Source: a virus. From it: a DNA stretch of 22,310 bases. The position numbers and the translations under genes were made by a program. A model generated the notes under the pieces. It did not search any database. It saw nothing but the letters and a program-made list of their open reading frames with translations, and was not told the origin of the DNA. Numbering within the stretch: position 1 is the stretch's first letter; every line of letters starts with the position of its first letter. Location: IMG/VR virus record IMGVR_UViG_3300027816_000438, positions 1 to 22,310 of that record; one strand, written 5' to 3'. This document shows positions 4,732 to 16,206 of this stretch, piece after piece.

Positions 4732-5178
4732 TTACTTCACTATTTCCGTGCCACAATTCGGACACAAATTAACTTCTGTCTTTGTATTGTCTTTTTGTTT
4801 TATATCTTCATCTAAATCGAGTATATCTAATCCCCAATCTTCGAGTTCTTGCGGAAACCAATTGTTAGCCAGGTCGTTCCAATCCCATTCTCCATAACCT
4901 ACATTGTCCTTGATGATAAATTCCTTTTGTTGTTCTTCGGTTAGGTTTGATGCTTTAATGATAGGTATCTCTTTCAAGCCTGCTTCTTGGCAAGCCTTTA
5001 ACCTCATATTACCACCCAACACAATCATATCATCATTGACTACTATCGGTCTAATCTCAAGCATCTGTGGAAACCCTTGGATTGACTTTACCAATTTTTG
5101 GAACTTATCATCCTTTATTATTCTCGGATTGTTAGGGTTCGTACGAACCTTGTTTATGTTTACTAACTCTGCTTTCAT
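4732..5178 (-). CDS. ParB/Srx-fold domain protein with C-terminal Cys pair
   Basis: The first 90 residues match the ParB nuclease-like domain: 'NPNNPR', 'RPIVVNDDMIVLGGNMRLKA' (positions about 43-62, with the conserved G-G-x-x-R) and 'KEIPIIKA'. The next part, 'FIIKDNVGYGEWDWNDLANN', is the linker usually seen between a ParB domain and a DNA methyltransferase domain in phage proteins. Here no methyltransferase follows; instead the protein ends with 'CPNCGTEIVK', half of a zinc ribbon. ParB-fold proteins bind or cleave nucleotides or DNA; in phages they are often next to terminase genes. It overlaps the upstream glycosyltransferase by four bases. The partner and reaction are unknown. Confidence 0.85.
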   Translation of the reverse strand: MKAELVNINKVRTNPNNPRIIKDDKFQKLVKSIQGFPQMLEIRPIVVNDDMIVLGGNMRLKACQEAGLKEIPIIKASNLTEEQQKEFIIKDNVGYGEWDWNDLANNWFPQELEDWGLDILDLDEDIKQKDNTKTEVNLCPNCGTEIVK

Positions 5179-5798
5179 AGAATAACGTAATTATTTGTAG
5201 ATTGATATTTGGCAGTTTCTTGCGCCCATAGTTTATCGCACTTGCTTAACCCTTCATCTTTCATCCTTCGGTAAGGTGTGTCTTGCCCTACATCGTGTCC
5301 TATATGCTCCGACCTCATACCGCCTAAATAATAATTCAAGTGTCCTGTTTGTGTTAATCTAAAGCAATAGTCGCTATCCTGCATTCCATATGGATCATAC
5401 ACCTCATTAAACTTTCCTATCGTTTCAATTGCTTTCATCGGTATTAACACATTGCCAAATACCATATTGCTAATATGTATTGGGATATCGTTTACATAGC
5501 TTCTATCTTGCAAACCCTCTACGCAATGTATCCCACAAGTTCCCGTATTAGGAATAGCATAAGCCGCCTCTACCATTCTGGATAACCAATCATCGGGCAT
5601 CAAAATATCGTTTGCCATTACTACAACCGCATCGTATTGATAACTCCTACTGATTCCATAGTTGATGGCTCTTGCTATGCCTTTCATCTCAACCTCAACA
5701 AAGTCAAAATGAAACCCTGCATTAGAGAAGTTTACATTCTTAACCCTTTGGGTGTGTTCCTTTCTTTCGTAGTTTAGTAAAATTACATTAACGAGCAT
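5175..5798 (-). CDS. GT2-like (GT-A fold) glycosyltransferase
   Basis: The 207-residue protein has a nucleotide-binding N-terminal strand 'VNVILLNYER', a 'NYGIS' helix start near residue 47, and 'VVVMANDILMPDDWLSRM' near residues 57-75, where N-D replaces the usual D-x-D metal motif. The later segment 'FNEVYDPYGMQDSDYCFRL' is the typical acceptor/catalytic acid region (E/D-D-x-D-x-x-x-R) of GT2 enzymes. It would transfer a sugar from an NDP-sugar, but the acceptor cannot be read from the sequence. It overlaps its neighbours on both sides, and lies close to an LpxA-like acyltransferase and a GT-B enzyme, so these probably act on one glycan or surface target. Confidence 0.85.
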   Translation of the reverse strand: MLVNVILLNYERKEHTQRVKNVNFSNAGFHFDFVEVEMKGIARAINYGISRSYQYDAVVVMANDILMPDDWLSRMVEAAYAIPNTGTCGIHCVEGLQDRSYVNDIPIHISNMVFGNVLIPMKAIETIGKFNEVYDPYGMQDSDYCFRLTQTGHLNYYLGGMRSEHIGHDVGQDTPYRRMKDEGLSKCDKLWAQETAKYQSTNNYVIL

Positions 5799-6264
5799 TG
5801 CTTCCTATTTCTTTTACAGGCACTCCTGCGTATTTATAGTGAGGTCTTAAAATAGATTTCTTTCCTACGAATGCCGATGCGCCAATCATACACCCTTCGG
5901 GTATTCTTACCTTTTGATGTAACACCGCATTCATTCCTAAGTTGCAATTCTTTTCGATTATTGCTAACCCACCGACTTTAGCACCAGCACTCAATGTAAC
6001 ATTCTCGGCTAAGATAGCATCGTGCGCAACGTAAACGTGCTTCATTAGGTAACAACCCTTTCCGATAATCGTTCTTCTTTGCGTGCCACTATCCACCGTA
6101 ACAAAACCCGTTAACCTTGACCCCGACATTATTGTTACTAACCCCTCGCAATCTTCGTACCCTTTCCATTCTGGAGGCGCACCTATTACACAATATGCAC
6201 CGATATAAACATTGGGTTCGATAATCACATTTGGGTAGATAATAGCGGTAGGATGGATATACAT
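5788..6264 (-). CDS. LpxA-like left-handed beta-helix acyltransferase
   Basis: The protein of 158 residues is made of hexapeptide repeats (for example 'IIYPNVIIEPNVYIGAYCVIG') that form a left-handed beta helix. A 'KHVYVAHDAIL' segment (His76, His81) lines up with the 'AHIAHDC' catalytic region of UDP-GlcNAc O-acyltransferase LpxA, and 'GMNAVLHQKVRIPEGCMIG' matches the LpxA 'GGMTAVHQ' turn. It lacks the helical C-terminal domain of bacterial LpxA, so it is shorter (158 against about 260). It probably acylates or acetylates a nucleotide sugar or surface glycan. It is flanked by two glycosyltransferase genes. Its start codon shares one base with the preceding stop (TAATG). Confidence 0.85.
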   Translation of the reverse strand: MYIHPTAIIYPNVIIEPNVYIGAYCVIGAPPEWKGYEDCEGLVTIMSGSRLTGFVTVDSGTQRRTIIGKGCYLMKHVYVAHDAILAENVTLSAGAKVGGLAIIEKNCNLGMNAVLHQKVRIPEGCMIGASAFVGKKSILRPHYKYAGVPVKEIGSNAR

Positions 6265-6428
6265 TAGTTCATCATTTTTAGATAGTCAATTTCAAGACCT
6301 TCCTTGCCCTCGATAATTCCTTTCCTTTCGATTGTGTTTATTATATCCCTTATGAGCCTTTCCTTTTCTTCGCTTGCCAAATGTTTGCTTTCCAATAGTT
6401 CCTGATTTAGCCATAACTCAACGACCAT
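6264..6428 (-). CDS. Small hypothetical protein, 54 aa
   Basis: The 54-residue product starts with 'MVVELWLNQELLESKHLAS' and is charged and helical throughout, with many Glu and Lys. A longer frame opens further upstream (to 6509), but its extra N-terminus lies entirely within the 45-residue gene at 6418-6555, is very basic and looks like a shadow. I therefore choose the ATG at 6428, which overlaps the upstream gene by 11 bases. The stop overlaps the next start by one base. No family is recognised. Confidence 0.5.
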   Translation of the reverse strand: MVVELWLNQELLESKHLASEEKERLIRDIINTIERKGIIEGKEGLEIDYLKMMN

Positions 6429-6555
6429 TTTTCTTTTTGAATTTACCTTGTGCGAGTATCGCCTTATATGCTTTGTCGGCTTTTTCTTTTGTTTTAAAGA
6501 CACAAGCACCGCTACCGATGCGCCACTTGCCGTTTTTACATTTTAATACTGGCAT
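6418..6555 (-). CDS. Small basic protein, 45 aa
   Basis: The product begins 'MPVLKCKNGKWRIGSGACVF' and continues 'KTKEKADKAYKAILAQGK'. This K-x-x-I-G then T-K-x-K-A-x-x-A-Y-x-A-x-L-A pattern recurs as a small module in tailed-phage proteins, either alone or at the end of larger ones; its function is not known to me. It has two Cys near the N-terminus and a lysine-rich end that could bind nucleic acid. It overlaps the end of the GT-B gene by 20 bases and the next gene by 11 bases. It is too short for routine gene finding but the composition and the ATG position support it. Confidence 0.6.
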   Translation of the reverse strand: MPVLKCKNGKWRIGSGACVFKTKEKADKAYKAILAQGKFKKKNGR

Positions 6556-7540
6556 ACAATTGTTTTCTTTTCTCGTTTACCTTAAATAAGCTAAAGTTTG
6601 TAACTGCCCATTCGAATAGTTGCAAACCTTTCTCTTGCCTATAAATAGCATCTTCGGCAACTTTTTTAATCTCTTTGTACCAATCACTTTGATAGTTAAC
6701 CTCTATCATTGGCGAGTTGAGATATGGCTCAACGTGGCTACCTATTACGGGAATTTTCTTTGTGGCTGCTTCTAAGAGTTTAAGGTTTGACTTCATTGAG
6801 TTGAACCTCGTTGCCCTTAGCGGAACGATAGAACAATCCGCATCGTTATAAAAGTTCATATACTCCGTAACGGGTAAAAACCTTTTAACATCGCCTAACT
6901 TTAATCCGCAAGTAAAATTACTTATCATCCGATGCCAGATGTGAGCTGAACCCTCGCCTCTATCATCAAAGCCACACAATTGAAAATGCACTTTGTTTCT
7001 AAGTGAATTATCCGAACCGACTTTCTTAAAAGGGAATTGAATAATCTTGATATCTTCTTCGTGCGTTATCGAACCCGTATAAACAAACTTAATCTTATCG
7101 GTGTATTCTCTTACATCGGTAAATTGGTCGTTACCATAAGGCAAAGCATTTGGTAGAATAGCAACATTAGAGTTCAAAGGTCGTATCTCATTCCATAGCT
7201 TTTCATTAGTGCAAGTAACTAAATCGGCAATCTTTATGTGATTGATAATTTCTTGTGTGGGGTAGACACTTGCTAATATGTGCGAACTATCCAATATCCA
7301 ATAATCATCTATATCGCAAATAATCTTAAAGCCATACTTATCTCGCTTCTCAATTAGGGTTTCCAAGGTAGTGCCAGGAATAAAGCGATTGAAGATTACA
7401 AGGTCAAAATTTTCCTCTAATACCTCATCGGTCAAGGCATCGGTAAACATCGCATAGGTCTTTTCCAAATAATAAATTGGCAACATTAGCCGATGATAGC
7501 CGACACCAGAGTTAGGTGCAGTTAATACAAGTATTCTCAT
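6536..7540 (-). CDS. GT-B fold (GT4-like) glycosyltransferase
   Basis: The protein of 334 residues shows a Rossmann-like start 'MRILVLTAPNSGVGYHRL', an acidic 'CDIDDYW' motif near residue 96-102, and 'VTCTNEKLWNEIR' followed by 'VAILPNALPYG', the linker region between two Rossmann domains. The second domain has 'KFVYTGSITHEEDI' and the nucleotide-sugar binding end 'SNLKLLEAATKKIPVIGS', equivalent to the E-x7-E helix of GT4 enzymes. A sugar transfer role is secure; donor and acceptor are not known. It is the longest gene of the sugar-related group placed between the sigma-like gene and the terminase. Confidence 0.88.
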   Translation of the reverse strand: MRILVLTAPNSGVGYHRLMLPIYYLEKTYAMFTDALTDEVLEENFDLVIFNRFIPGTTLETLIEKRDKYGFKIICDIDDYWILDSSHILASVYPTQEIINHIKIADLVTCTNEKLWNEIRPLNSNVAILPNALPYGNDQFTDVREYTDKIKFVYTGSITHEEDIKIIQFPFKKVGSDNSLRNKVHFQLCGFDDRGEGSAHIWHRMISNFTCGLKLGDVKRFLPVTEYMNFYNDADCSIVPLRATRFNSMKSNLKLLEAATKKIPVIGSHVEPYLNSPMIEVNYQSDWYKEIKKVAEDAIYRQEKGLQLFEWAVTNFSLFKVNEKRKQLYASIKM

Positions 7541-12011: not shown

Positions 12012-12284
12012 ATGAATATTTTAGAAAAGGCAAATGAAATAGTTAATTTAAGGTCAGAAGAAAAAGAAAGACAATATGGTAGTTTTTCAGAAGGAATGGT
12101 AAACGCAGCGAATTTATTTAATTGCTTAACAAATAATAAATATAATATAAAACCAGAAGACATGTATATGTCAATGGTTGCATTAAAATTAAGCAGACAG
12201 GCATTTAATCATAAAGAAGACAATCTTCTAGACTGTGTTGCATATTTAGCTGCACTTAATAACTATATAAATGAAAAAATATGA
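12012..12284 (+). CDS. DUF6378-like (MazG-related helical) protein, 90 aa
   Basis: The 90-residue protein begins 'MNILEKANEIVNLRSEEKER' and continues 'QYGSFSEGMVNAANLF', 'MYMSMVALKLSRQAF', 'NLLDCVAYLAALNNYI'. The order 'R-x-x-Q-Y-G-x-F', 'M-x-x-x-K-x-S-R' and 'D-x-x-x-Y-x-A' is what I know of DUF6378 phage proteins, an all-helical group thought to be related to nucleotide pyrophosphohydrolases. It is the first gene of the AT-rich cassette, starts six bases after ninG and overlaps the next gene by four bases. A role in the nucleotide pool would suit the cassette, but activity is not shown. Confidence 0.65.
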   Translation: MNILEKANEIVNLRSEEKERQYGSFSEGMVNAANLFNCLTNNKYNIKPEDMYMSMVALKLSRQAFNHKEDNLLDCVAYLAALNNYINEKI

Positions 12285-13153
12285 AAAAAGGTATTATAGG
12301 GATATTAAATAACCCAGCTACATCAATAAATTCGCACTCTAGTGGTATGGTAAATATAGTAAAAAACTTATTTGATGCCGATATATTATCAGAAACAGAT
12401 AATTGGGATAATTATGATCAATTAATAATTTATCATGGTCCTAATTTTAAAAAGGGTGTATTTAATATTATAGGAGGTATAAATGATGGCGTAAAAAATA
12501 GATGCAATAAATTAATAAATTATAAAGGATTAATTAAGTCATTAGACGGTTTTCAATTTATAGATTTTATTAATAAAAGAAAATTAAATTACTCATATAA
12601 TAATATGTTTGAAGAAATAGAATTACCTGAAAAAAATAATATAATTATTGGTGATTCCCATTCAATATCGGCATGGTTTAATAAAGAATACACAATAAAA
12701 AGAATTGATGGCAAAACATTATATGGTTTTTTAAAATTAAACTATGATTTATCAAATTATGATAAAAAAATTATATATTTTGGAAATATAGATATAAGAT
12801 TCCACATATGCAGATTAAATAATCCAGAACTAGAACTAAATTTATTAATAGATAAATATTTAAATTATTGTCATAAATACAATTGTGAAATAGTTAATTT
12901 ATTACCTATAGAATCTGAATCAAGAAAAATACCTGGAACTGGATTGTATAAAGGAGAAAAGTATTTTGGATCAATGCAACAGAGACAGGAATTAGTTTAT
13001 ACATTTAATAATTCTATAAATAATTCAGGTTTAAAAACATATAAGTGGCCAGAAAAATGGTATAATAATATAGATTATTATGAAAATAATGTTATGGAAC
13101 CAAAACAATCTGTACATATTAGACCGAAATATTATCAAAAAAATTTAATATGA
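12281..13153 (+). CDS. SGNH-hydrolase-like protein with an unknown N-terminal domain, 290 aa
   Basis: Residues 1-110 form an alpha/beta domain I cannot name ('GIIGILNNPATSINSHSSGM' at about 4-23 and 'YHGPNFKKGVFNIIGG' at about 51-66). Residues 120-285 look like an SGNH hydrolase: 'IIIGDSHSIS' with Ser126 as block I, 'YFGNIDIR' (Gly168-Asn169) as block III and 'SVHIRP' (His279) as block V; the usual Asp three residues before the His is not there, with Glu273 nearby. SGNH enzymes act on esters or transfer acyl groups. In this cassette it may process an intermediate or decoration of a modified base, but that is inference. It overlaps both neighbours by four bases. Confidence 0.6.
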   Translation: MKKGIIGILNNPATSINSHSSGMVNIVKNLFDADILSETDNWDNYDQLIIYHGPNFKKGVFNIIGGINDGVKNRCNKLINYKGLIKSLDGFQFIDFINKRKLNYSYNNMFEEIELPEKNNIIIGDSHSISAWFNKEYTIKRIDGKTLYGFLKLNYDLSNYDKKIIYFGNIDIRFHICRLNNPELELNLLIDKYLNYCHKYNCEIVNLLPIESESRKIPGTGLYKGEKYFGSMQQRQELVYTFNNSINNSGLKTYKWPEKWYNNIDYYENNVMEPKQSVHIRPKYYQKNLI

Positions 13154-14115
13154 ATATAAATCCTATACTATTAGACGCCTTAGATGAATATCATGAAAAG
13201 AGTTTATTAATGCAATCATTTTATTATGATAAAAATTGCATCATAAAATCAGAAGAAGAATTAAAATACTTGATCGATGATGATTTGATTTTTCATGTTC
13301 CTATATATGATATGCTAGATAGGAAATACGCAGCGTTTTCTTCTTTTTTAGAAGCTATTGATAAAAAACACAATGATCCAAAAGGAAATGGTATTAGATT
13401 TCAAGATCATAAAATTACAGAAGAAATAGACAAACTTATGTTATTTTATTTATTTAGGTTATGTGGATCAGGTATTGATTATAAACCAGGTTCACATGGT
13501 TTTGGTAATTTTTGGATAGTTAATAGTATATTAAATAAAAAATATACAACATCTTATTGGTTAGAAGATTTACCACAAAATAAATTTAGTAATAATTCTG
13601 GTTATTTATTACCTCAATTTTCTATAGGTTTACGAAATTTTATATTAAAATATAGCGTTGAATTGGTTAATGAATTATATAGATATATAAAAAATGGTAA
13701 TATTAATATTATAGACTTTGTAAATCATGGAAATAAATATTTAAACGAATTAGGTTTTAAAAAGCAAAAATTTGTTTTAAGTGCATTTGCCGCTGATATT
13801 GCTGAATATTTTCCTAATTATATTAATAGACAGAGTATGATATTTCCGGGGACTAATGCTCAAAAATGTATAAAAGCAATATTTGGTAAATGCAATCACT
13901 TAGAGGCGATACAATTTTTGGCTAATAGGTATAATTCTGTTCCATACAGTGTTGAAGATTCTAGATTATGCGATCCAATAAGATATTTTTTAGATTACCA
14001 ATCAAAGTATCATATAGCAAAAAATAATAACATAGTTTATAAAAACAACTCTAAATTAAAAAAAATATGGAGCAAACAAGAATACCAAAATTTTCAATCA
14101 CTTCTTCGCAAATAA
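13150..14115 (+). CDS. DNA-hypermodification-associated protein, aGPT-Pplase-like (HhH-glycosylase fold), 321 aa
   Basis: The protein is almost all helical. Landmarks are 'LMLFYLFRLCGSGIDYKPG' at 96-114, 'GFGNFWIVNSIL' at 117-128, 'LGFKKQKFVLSAFAADIAEY' at 201-220, 'MIFPGTNAQKCIKAIFG' at 230-246 and 'SVEDSRLCDPIRYF' at 267-280. I associate this layout with the alpha-glutamyl/putrescinyl-thymine pyrophosphorylases (aGPT-Pplase, amino acid:DNA transferases) described from thymidine-hypermodified phages, which displace a pyrophosphate on a base and attach an amine. The call is from pattern memory and is moderate. Its neighbours, a PLP enzyme and a synthase-family hydroxymethylase, are the usual company of that family. 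Confidence 0.45.
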   Translation: MNINPILLDALDEYHEKSLLMQSFYYDKNCIIKSEEELKYLIDDDLIFHVPIYDMLDRKYAAFSSFLEAIDKKHNDPKGNGIRFQDHKITEEIDKLMLFYLFRLCGSGIDYKPGSHGFGNFWIVNSILNKKYTTSYWLEDLPQNKFSNNSGYLLPQFSIGLRNFILKYSVELVNELYRYIKNGNINIIDFVNHGNKYLNELGFKKQKFVLSAFAADIAEYFPNYINRQSMIFPGTNAQKCIKAIFGKCNHLEAIQFLANRYNSVPYSVEDSRLCDPIRYFLDYQSKYHIAKNNNIVYKNNSKLKKIWSKQEYQNFQSLLRK

Positions 14116-14924
14116 ATAAAGATAATATTTATACAAAAGAAGAATATCTTGAGATGGTTGATAATTTTGAAAGTAGTTTTGACAAACCAGTAGAAGAAAA
14201 TTACAATGGTATTAGAGTAATAAGAGAAGATTTAATTTATGTAGGTTCAAAAGCTAGAGCTGGAGAATATCTAATAGCTAATTGCAAATCAGATAAAATA
14301 GTGTATGTTCAACCAAGATATGGCTTCGCTGGTATTTCTCTTACCAATTTATGTAAAAAATACAATAAGAAGTTGATTTTATTTATGCCTTCTAGTAAAA
14401 TTATATCCGAACATCAGGCTTATTGTATTGAACAGGGTTGCGAATATTATTTTTATAGGATTGCGGCAATGCCTAATTTAAATAATATAGCTAAAAGATG
14501 GTCAGAAGAAAATAATGCATATTTCATTCCATTAGGTTTAAAACACCCATTAGTTACAGCAATGATAATCAAAACGGCATCAACAATAAAAGAACCTAAA
14601 AGATTTTGGACAGCCGTATCAACTGGTGTTTTAAATAGAGCGCTACAAATAGCTTGGCCTAATTCAGAGGCTTTCGGTGTCGCTGTTTCTAGAAATATTA
14701 AAGATGGAGAAAAAGGAAGAGCAAATATGATTTCTCATTATAGAGATTTTCATCAAGATTCATTAATATTGCCTCCATTTCCAAGTGCTAAAAACTATGA
14801 TGCTAAAGTTTGGGAATATTTAAAAGAGGGTGATCTATTTTGGAATGTAGCAGGAGAAATAAAATCAAGTATAAATAAATTAAATATTAAATCACAAAAA
14901 AACTGGAAAAATGAAACTATCTAA
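14067..14924 (+). CDS. PLP-dependent enzyme, fold type II-like, 285 aa
   Basis: The segment 'YVGSKARAGEYLI' (residues 58-70) matches the Schiff-base lysine region of tryptophan-synthase-beta-type PLP enzymes, making Lys62 the likely PLP lysine. 'PRYGFAGISLTNLCKKYNKK' followed by 'LILFMPSSK' mirrors the S-x-G-N-H-x-x-x-x-A ... MP stretch of the small domain, with N-H replaced by F-A. 'AVSTGVLNRAL' (183-193) is a plausible phosphate-binding loop. In thymidine-hypermodified phages PLP enzymes remodel the amino acid attached to the base, for example by decarboxylation; a like role here is inferred. The ATG at 14067 overlaps the upstream gene by 49 bases; a later ATG (M30) is also possible. Confidence 0.7.
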   Translation: MEQTRIPKFSITSSQINKDNIYTKEEYLEMVDNFESSFDKPVEENYNGIRVIREDLIYVGSKARAGEYLIANCKSDKIVYVQPRYGFAGISLTNLCKKYNKKLILFMPSSKIISEHQAYCIEQGCEYYFYRIAAMPNLNNIAKRWSEENNAYFIPLGLKHPLVTAMIIKTASTIKEPKRFWTAVSTGVLNRALQIAWPNSEAFGVAVSRNIKDGEKGRANMISHYRDFHQDSLILPPFPSAKNYDAKVWEYLKEGDLFWNVAGEIKSSINKLNIKSQKNWKNETI

Positions 14925-15213
14925 TGAGTTTGATGACATCAGACAATGGGCAAAAGAAAGAGGAATATATGAAAAAGGGGATCCTAAAACACAACTTTTA
15001 AAATTAATCGAGGAAACTGGTGAATTATCAAAAGGAATACTAAAATTAAATCAAGAAGAAATTGTTGACGCAATAGGGGATTGCGTTGTAGTTTTAGTTA
15101 ATTTGTCAGAATTATGCAAATTGAATTTTGAAGATTGTGTAAATTCAGCATTTGATCAAATAAAAAATAGAAAAGGAGAAATGAAAAATGGAACATTCGT
15201 TAAGAGCATATGA
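14911..15213 (+). CDS. MazG-family nucleotide pyrophosphohydrolase
   Basis: The 100-residue protein has the MazG metal-binding motifs: 'KLIEETGELSKGI' (E-E-x-x-E at about residues 33-37) and 'IVDAIGDCVVVLVNL' (E-x-x-D near 50-58). These hydrolyse (d)NTP to (d)NMP and pyrophosphate. In the cassette it could remove canonical dCTP or dTTP, or feed dCMP/dUMP to the hydroxymethylase three genes downstream. It overlaps the preceding gene by 14 bases and the following gene by 26. It is one of three pyrophosphohydrolase-like genes in the window. Confidence 0.85.
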   Translation: MKLSNEFDDIRQWAKERGIYEKGDPKTQLLKLIEETGELSKGILKLNQEEIVDAIGDCVVVLVNLSELCKLNFEDCVNSAFDQIKNRKGEMKNGTFVKSI

Positions 15214-15559
15214 TTCTAATTACTTTGGTTCTAAGTTAAATTATTTCGTATCTAATTATTGTAAAAAAACAATGGTTGTCAATAATATCGACATGATTAT
15301 TAATGATTATGAAAATAAAATAATTTCGTTAATAGAAAGCAAACATGACAAGGAACCAGTAAGAAAGGGTCAAAAATTAACATTAACAAAATTAAGGCAA
15401 ATATTACCAAAAAAACAAGATGGTTGGACTATAAGAGTTTTAGTAATAAGAGGTAATTATCCTTATGATACCGCAACTTTAGAATCAATAGATGGAACTT
15501 ATAAGAAACAAGTTAATAAAAATGAATTAATAAACTTTTTAAATGGTAAATCAATATAA
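15188..15559 (+). CDS. Small PD-(D/E)XK nuclease-like protein, 123 aa
   Basis: The 123-residue protein has 'NNIDMIINDYENKIISLIES' with Asp35 and then E50-x-K52 in 'IIES-KHDKE', the D...ExK layout of the PD-(D/E)XK nuclease fold, followed by a helix ('GQKLTLTKLRQIL') that often carries a further active-site Gln. A C-terminal beta part ('TIRVLVIRGNYPYDTATL') fits the fold. The family appears in phages as uncharacterised proteins. It may cut host or unmodified DNA, or take part in recombination; neither is shown. It ends in a one-base overlap (TAATG) with the hydroxymethylase gene. Confidence 0.55.
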   Translation: MEHSLRAYDSNYFGSKLNYFVSNYCKKTMVVNNIDMIINDYENKIISLIESKHDKEPVRKGQKLTLTKLRQILPKKQDGWTIRVLVIRGNYPYDTATLESIDGTYKKQVNKNELINFLNGKSI

Positions 15560-16206
15560 TGTATTATAAAAAATTTAATAATGCCCAAGAAGCATTTGAA
15601 TATTATTATGACTTAATCAATAACTATGGAATTTTTGTTAATAATACAAAAGTTCTTTATAATGTAGGTTTTGATATTTTAAACCCAATGGATAATAAAA
15701 TAGAAACAGTATGGAGAAAATGGAATAAAGATTATGCAGATTATGAATGGAATTGGTATTTAAATGGTAACAATAATGCTGAAGAAATATCTAAAAAAGC
15801 AAAAATATGGAAAAACATGATGGATGAAAATTGCAACGTTAACTCAAACTATGGATATCAGTGGAGAAGGAATAACCAACTAGATAAAGTAATAGAATTA
15901 TTAAAAAAAGATAATACAACAAGAAAAGCATCTATTTCACTATATGATGGAAAAGAAATAGATTTGTATAAAAAGGATACAATATGCACTTATGCAATTA
16001 ATTTTTATATTTTAGAAAATAAATTAAATATACAGGCATTAATGAGAAGTAATGATTTGGTATATGGATTTTGTAATGATCAATATTGTTTTTCTAAACT
16101 TCAAGAATTAGTTGCTAATGAGTTAAAGATAGATATTGGAACATATTTTCATTACTCTTGTAATATGCATATATACGAAAAACATTATAATTTAAAAAAT
16201 AAATAA
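15559..16206 (+). CDS. Thymidylate-synthase-family nucleotide hydroxymethylase, probably dCMP-specific
   Basis: The C-terminal 120 residues align with E. coli ThyA without gaps: Cys143 (catalytic, ThyA Cys146), Arg163-Ser164 (ThyA Arg166-Ser167), Asp166, His204 and Tyr206 (ThyA His207, Tyr209), with the same spacing (20 residues Cys to Arg, 30 from the base-reading position to His). ThyA Asn177 is Asp174 here, as in T4 dCMP hydroxymethylase, where it selects cytosine over uracil. 'NYGYQWRRNNQ' and 'NTTRKASI' are the other family landmarks. The enzyme would put a one-carbon unit from methylene-THF on C5 of dCMP (or dUMP), giving a 5-hydroxymethyl nucleotide. At 215 residues it is short. Confidence 0.8.
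   Translation: MYYKKFNNAQEAFEYYYDLINNYGIFVNNTKVLYNVGFDILNPMDNKIETVWRKWNKDYADYEWNWYLNGNNNAEEISKKAKIWKNMMDENCNVNSNYGYQWRRNNQLDKVIELLKKDNTTRKASISLYDGKEIDLYKKDTICTYAINFYILENKLNIQALMRSNDLVYGFCNDQYCFSKLQELVANELKIDIGTYFHYSCNMHIYEKHYNLKNK

Follow-up and report, generated by a model that had tools for sequence, protein, structure and literature searches.

The 22,310-base IMG/VR viral record IMGVR_UViG_3300027816_000438, referred to here in its entirety as the window, carries at 12012-16206 a cassette of seven co-directional open reading frames (ORFs) on a single strand, labelled G1 to G7 in order. An earlier note on this DNA, which had placed all seven genes correctly, read them as an undescribed DNA base hypermodification pathway. 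That reading is supported as the best one, with the amendment that the base is most likely cytosine, since G7 has the residues of a dCMP-type enzyme. It is highly probable that the cassette serves cytosine hypermodification, and the fuller statement, that the hypermodification is of the amino-acid type, is likely with somewhat less confidence. Profile searches placed neither G3 nor G4 in an unrelated family, and the reading stands as supported. The seven genes are as follows.

12012..12284, + strand: G1, accessory DUF6378 protein of 90 amino acids (Pfam PF19905, E 8e-13; co-occurrence)
12281..13153, + strand: G2, SGNH/GDSL-fold enzyme, core (phrog_13881, E 1e-37; Foldseek; conserved residues)
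13150..14115, + strand: G3, divergent all-helical protein assigned by predicted fold to the ADDT/aGPT-Pplase/HMUDK-helical group, core
14067..14924, + strand: G4, fold-type II pyridoxal phosphate (PLP) enzyme, relative of phage M6 gp52, core (phrog_7093, E 2e-36)
14911..15213, + strand: G5, MazG-type pyrophosphohydrolase (PF03819, E 2e-7; phrog_1992, E 8e-37)
15188..15559, + strand: G6, small accessory protein with a PD-(D/E)XK-like motif, seen by eye
15559..16206, + strand: G7, predicted dCMP-type hydroxymethylase of the thymidylate synthase (TS) superfamily (PF00303, E 8e-25)

Composition and conservation of the cassette

Pfam agrees with the DUF6378, MazG and thymidylate synthase assignments that the earlier note had given to G1, G5 and G7. 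The role of G1 is possibly related to the nucleotide pool, and G6 has no significant profile match. From G1 to G7 the junctions overlap by 4, 4, 49, 14, 26 and 1 bases. The four-base or one-base overlaps described earlier are therefore correct for three of the six junctions and incorrect for the other three.

With a GC content of 25.0%, against 37.8% for the remainder of the window, the cassette is more AT-rich than any other stretch of 4.2 kb. The block thus stands out from its flanks as had been claimed, and two hand counts given for GC (27 of 60 and 7 of 60) are exact. The cassette is flanked by a NinG-like gene on one side and by a gene with weak helix-turn-helix matches on the other. When G2-G4 were compared with their surroundings in 61 related loci, the mean difference was -0.012, so these genes are not generally AT-richer. 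An AT-rich cassette is also found in the related loci L003 and L012; AT-richness is a trait of this lineage and not of the cassette generally. Since the GC contrast is local to this lineage, recent transfer into this phage would fit. Positions 10-20 kb of the window have no DNA-level relative among catalogued phages.

A search of viral contigs with G3 recovered 164 relatives, of which 80 were kept. With the window these make up 81 loci, in which genes were counted by a six-frame profile search (short contigs depress some of the lower counts). G4 is found in 80 of the 81 loci, the sole exception being a contig that ends one base past G3. G2 is found in 77 (among them L006-L008, L013 and L014, by profile and six-frame searches), and in the remaining four loci G3 starts no more than 55 bases from the contig end. 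G2, G3 and G4 are co-directional in all related loci where sequence is available. The three genes form a conserved core in which G2 is an obligate partner of G3.

G1 is present in 70 of the 81 loci, G7 in 63, G5 in 36 and G6 in 4, and genes for dCMP deaminase and dUTPase are neighbours in 46 and 35 loci, respectively. As it occurs in just four loci, G6 is not a core member; it is incidental and confined to close relatives. The earlier note had counted both the SGNH protein and a nuclease as parts additional to the thymidine pathway; of these, the SGNH protein is a core partner of the transferase-fold protein, while the nuclease is incidental. Among 84,980 genomes searched, G3 had no match. A neighbouring gene product of about 540 amino acids in many loci was guessed to be a symporter, a guess that was dropped, the sequence being GroEL chaperonin-like by eye. 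Elsewhere in the window (4732-7540, - strand), a ParB-like gene, two glycosyltransferase-like genes and one left-handed-helix acyltransferase-like gene adjoin the terminase and might decorate DNA or the virion.

The core enzymes G2, G3 and G4

Sequence searches of Pfam, PHROGs, NCBIfam, PADLOC and the PDB left G3 without a significant match. Its AlphaFold model (mean pLDDT 89.9) was compared with BFVD by Foldseek, and among the named matches an 'Amino acid:DNA transferase domain-containing protein' ranks first (E 2.8e-11, TM 0.75/0.64). Weaker matches are another protein with the amino acid:DNA transferase (ADDT) domain, two aGPT-Pplase clade 1 proteins and the HMUDK helical protein of phiW-14. 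The fold group also includes putrescinyl and glutamyl transferases by name. Foldseek against the PDB gave nothing significant, its weak matches including DNA glycosylases. Membership of the modelled G3 in the amino acid:DNA transferase/aGPT-Pplase fold group is well supported, and the aGPT-Pplase-like label of the earlier note is upheld by fold alone.

The call of G4 as a fold-type II PLP enzyme was borne out by the firm match to PHROG 7093, the match to PALP in Pfam being weak (E 7e-4). Profile-profile comparison of G4 with the gp52 family of phage M6 gave an E value of 2e-10 (probability 96.8); apart from this pair and the two TS-family sets, the other cross-comparisons were silent. The expected PLP-binding lysine, Lys62, is invariant in all 85 readable members. 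In M6, gp51 (Pfam ADDT) adjoins gp52, forming an ADDT-PLP pair like the adjacent G3 and G4. Where thymidine is hypermodified, PLP enzymes work on the amino acid once it is attached, as decarboxylases for example. G4 is by homology a relative of M6 gp52, and its reaction would most likely be a decarboxylation. Distant homologues of G4 (29-32% identity) are present in Erythrobacter and Microcystis phages (L083 and L084), where they are either fused to ParB-like domains or next to them and bear the annotation DNA modification methylase.

The PHROG matches of G2, including phrog_13881, are all uncharacterised. The G2 model (pLDDT 92.9) matches GDSL/SGNH esterases in Foldseek (E 2e-4, probability 1.00), and membership of the SGNH/GDSL superfamily, as the earlier note proposed, is confirmed for the model by fold alone. 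The protein has an N-terminal alpha/beta extension of about 110 amino acids. Conserved motifs correspond to the block I serine (GDSH, 85 of 88 members), the block III asparagine (GNIDxR, 82 of 88) and the block V histidine (S-V/L-H, 77 of 88).

Among catalogued phages, 38 Aeromonas, 2 Stenotrophomonas and 3 Tenacibaculum records contain a homologue of G2. For Aeromonas and Stenotrophomonas, each of these records has a gp42 dCMP hydroxymethylase as well; the Aeromonas records that are listed with gp42 but not with G2 are fragments, 5-7 kb long. In Aeromonas phage 44RR (L082, 6408-10388), G2 is fused to an HMUDK_hel-related domain (ORF233c), and a sodium:solute symporter gene that lies directly before it could import the group attached to hydroxymethylcytosine. 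Aeromonas phage 25 (L086, 2776-6047), in which gp42 is also present, has a UDP-galactopyranose mutase, a glycosyltransferase-like protein (by eye) and a G2 homologue in a row, which suggests a galactofuranosyl cytosine.

A free-standing HMUDK_hel-like domain lies near G2 in five metagenome-assembled or viral contigs (L164, L165, L169, L170 and L174); in L170 and L174 its score exceeds the Pfam cut-off, and a myo-inositol-phosphate synthase (PF01658) is encoded as well. Some of the five contigs have a dCMP-type hydroxymethylase, and a C5-cytosine methylase-like gene often follows (PF00145 in L170). These loci suggest an apparent sister pathway that places inositol on cytosine. The recurrence of G2 with different putative attached groups on cytosine suggests that it performs a shared step.

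The sister set bears on the strongest rival explanation, in which cytosine is hypermodified with a group other than an amino acid, G3 moving some other small nucleophile, a polyol or a polyamine, from a donor that G4 makes or recycles. It combines G2 with an HMUDK_hel-like transferase and an inositol-type enzyme, and the putrescinyl and glutamyl transferases named in the fold group of G3 point in the same direction. Against this, G4 accompanies G3 in every locus with sequence available, and its M6 relative gp52 adjoins an amino acid:DNA transferase. A group other than an amino acid is thus unlikely, though it survives better than any other alternative.

The hydroxymethylase and the target base

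In enzymes of the TS superfamily, a change of residue 177 (E. coli numbering throughout) from Asn to Asp is reported to switch use from dUMP to dCMP and to be enriched on contigs with modified cytosine (MetaGPA, PMC8670742). Asp177 is found in 72 of 72 readable sequences of the G7 family and also in T4-like gp42 proteins, whereas hydroxymethylases beside M6-type genes have Asn177 (18 of 18). Hydroxymethylases of two other lineages that lie beside the core, or most of it, in L167, L175 and L176 and in L007 and L008 have Asp177 too; that of L167 is 23% identical to G7 and no nearer to it than that of M6. The counts represent related sequences and not independent events, and three lineages agree. 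G7 has the equivalents of Cys146, Asp169 and Asp177 of the TS fold family. Its closest solved relatives are headed by the CMP hydroxymethylase MilA, with T4 dCMP hydroxymethylase fourth in the list. By these residues, dCMP as the substrate of the predicted enzyme is strongly supported, and cytosine, as opposed to thymine, is the most likely target base.

A thymidine hypermodification like that of M6, with an unusual hydroxymethylase, would account for the three kinds of part that the cassette has in common with M6 and for the frequent neighbours dCMP deaminase and dUTPase, which feed dUMP. T4-like phages with hydroxymethylcytosine also carry dCMP deaminase and dUTPase/dCTPase, which counts against this explanation. 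Asp177 in three hydroxymethylase lineages argues against it as well, as do searches for HMUDK, HMUDK_hel and ADDT, which were negative for every cassette-bearing record covered. HMUDK (PF18748) and HMUDK_hel (PF18723) were found in none of 29 cassette-bearing viral records of up to 162 kb, some of them possibly fragments, with the M6 control found; the earlier note had already reported HMUDK to be missing from the window. ADDT (PF18724) did not match the G3-bearing records even at E values up to 10, and M6 gp51 was recovered as a control. Modification of thymidine is accordingly very improbable.

Equally improbable is that the handle is 5-hydroxycytosine, with G2 and G3 acting on an aryl hydroxyl instead of a hydroxymethyl group. 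For RB69-type phages, some TS-superfamily enzymes with Asp177 reportedly produce 5-hydroxy-dCMP (PMC13390438). In addition, Tenacibaculum phage PTm1 has, besides a G2 homologue, a protein of the TS superfamily (L214, 122900-124200) whose active site resembles that of RB69 (RSNN...LD) and which may be a 5-hydroxy-dCMP synthase. G7 and its relatives retain Asp169 and Gly173 as in T4 gp42, whereas the RB69 homologue has lost both, which makes 5-hydroxymethyl-dCMP the likely product of G7. That the cassette is a toxin or defence island, or one of general nucleotide metabolism, without DNA modification, is hardly credible: MazG, DUF6378 and PALP domains occur in many contexts, but PADLOC has no match for the cassette genes, the G2-G3-G4 linkage is obligate and a hydroxymethylase is associated with it.

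Proposed pathway and relation to known systems

In the proposed amino-acid pathway, G5, possibly with G1, would trim the dCTP/dNTP pool and G7 would convert dCMP to 5-hydroxymethyl-dCMP. A kinase, perhaps one of the host, would bring the hydroxymethylated nucleotide to the triphosphate for incorporation into DNA. G3 would then exchange the hydroxyl of 5-hydroxymethylcytosine (5-hmC) in DNA for an amino acid, which G4 would reshape; decarboxylation, the likeliest reaction, would leave a cytosine that bears an amine. G2 may activate the 5-hmC hydroxyl in place of a kinase of the 5-hmdU type, or it may acylate or deacylate the product; activation is a tentative first guess. Once in place, the modified base would guard the DNA against nucleases of the host. 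This scheme is inferred as regards the final base, the donor and what G2 does.

In five related records a P-loop kinase adjoins the Asp177 enzyme and could be an hmdCMP kinase. The closest longer relative of the window (34.9 kb) has no gene with a nucleotide-kinase-like Walker A motif, its terminase being the only one with a Walker A. Small APS-kinase-like P-loop proteins are encoded in two other cassette-bearing records (L225:1056-1526 and L017:8105-8608) and are possible hydroxyl kinases.

Several points weigh against this pathway. It is predicted from genes and modelled folds, and the window that carries them is a fragment. The searches turned up no kinase, or activating enzyme of another kind, that could be assigned to it. 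G3 has no detectable sequence or profile similarity to ADDT or HMUDK_hel, and its putative reaction, amino acid transfer, is predicted from fold and gene context; profile-profile comparison of G3 with these two sets gave no signal, as did comparison of ADDT with HMUDK_hel, so that its power is low. In G2 the position three residues ahead of the catalytic His, normally Asp, is taken by Gln276, which is invariant in the alignment. The presence of G2 in PTm1, and beside sugar-type genes in phage 25, weakens a role in CH2-OH activation, and the 5-hydroxy-type cytosine enzyme that accompanies it in PTm1 argues against a step specific to hydroxymethyl.

The cassette apparently encodes an undescribed 5-hmC hypermodification pathway of the amino-acid type. 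No description of the gene combination was found in the literature searched, which left out the main papers on thymidine hypermodification and so limits the claim of novelty. As far as the search could show, thymidine is the sole nucleoside known to be hypermodified by way of an amino acid transferase together with a PLP enzyme. Extending the process to 5-hmC, where no kinase can be recognised, implies a new enzyme chemistry on DNA, and new reagents for 5-hmC might result. The boldest form of the proposal, that this is the first amino-acid-type hypermodification of 5-hmC, that G2 activates the hydroxymethyl group without a kinase and that G2 is the shared entry enzyme of several cytosine pathways, is doubtful. 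If it is true, the pathways entered through G2 are set apart by the attached group alone, which would be an amino acid with G3-G4, inositol with an HMUDK_hel-like protein and either myo-inositol-phosphate synthase or, in 44RR, an importer, and a sugar in phage 25.

The cassette resembles several known systems in part. The Aeromonas T4-like phages 44RR, 31 and 25 share with it a gp42 dCMP hydroxymethylase and a G2 homologue, but no G3 or G4 homologue was detected in them, and symporter (44RR) or sugar-type genes (25) lie by G2. Their modification was left as an open question (PMC2993671), and G2 as a marker provides a lead on what they attach to hydroxymethylcytosine. T4-type glycosylation likewise employs a dCMP hydroxymethylase, a dNTP pyrophosphohydrolase and a 5-hmC handle; the cassette has transferase-fold and PLP enzymes and no glucosyltransferase. 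The CmoA-CmoX-CmoY system for 5-carboxymethylcytosine-glycine also joins an amino acid to cytosine in phage DNA, but it creates a carboxymethyl handle from Cx-SAM through a C5-methyltransferase homologue, followed by ATP-dependent amide ligation, and the cassette is without those enzymes.

In the 5-hmC carbamoyltransferase system (MetaGPA, with similar genes in Bacteroides phage BF503P1), a TobZ-like carbamoyltransferase stands in for G2-G3-G4, and none of the seven cassette proteins has such a domain. Besides the TobZ-like carbamoyltransferase, BF503P1 (L085, 3640-9669) encodes two dCMP-type hydroxymethylases and a P-loop dNMP-kinase-like protein. One of the two hydroxymethylases shares 52% identity with G7, so that a single enzyme subfamily would feed both systems.

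The M6 thymidine hypermodification system comprises an ADDT (gp51), a PLP enzyme (gp52), a radical SAM protein (gp53), HMUDK (gp54), HMUDK_hel (gp55) and a TS-family enzyme (gp58). The cassette lacks HMUDK, HMUDK_hel, a Pfam ADDT and radical SAM, adds an SGNH enzyme, has a G3 that cannot be aligned to ADDT and would place the handle on cytosine (Asp177), where M6 places it on uracil (Asn177). What the two have in common is a hydroxymethylase of the TS superfamily and a predicted amino acid:DNA transferase fold adjoining a homologous fold-type II PLP enzyme.

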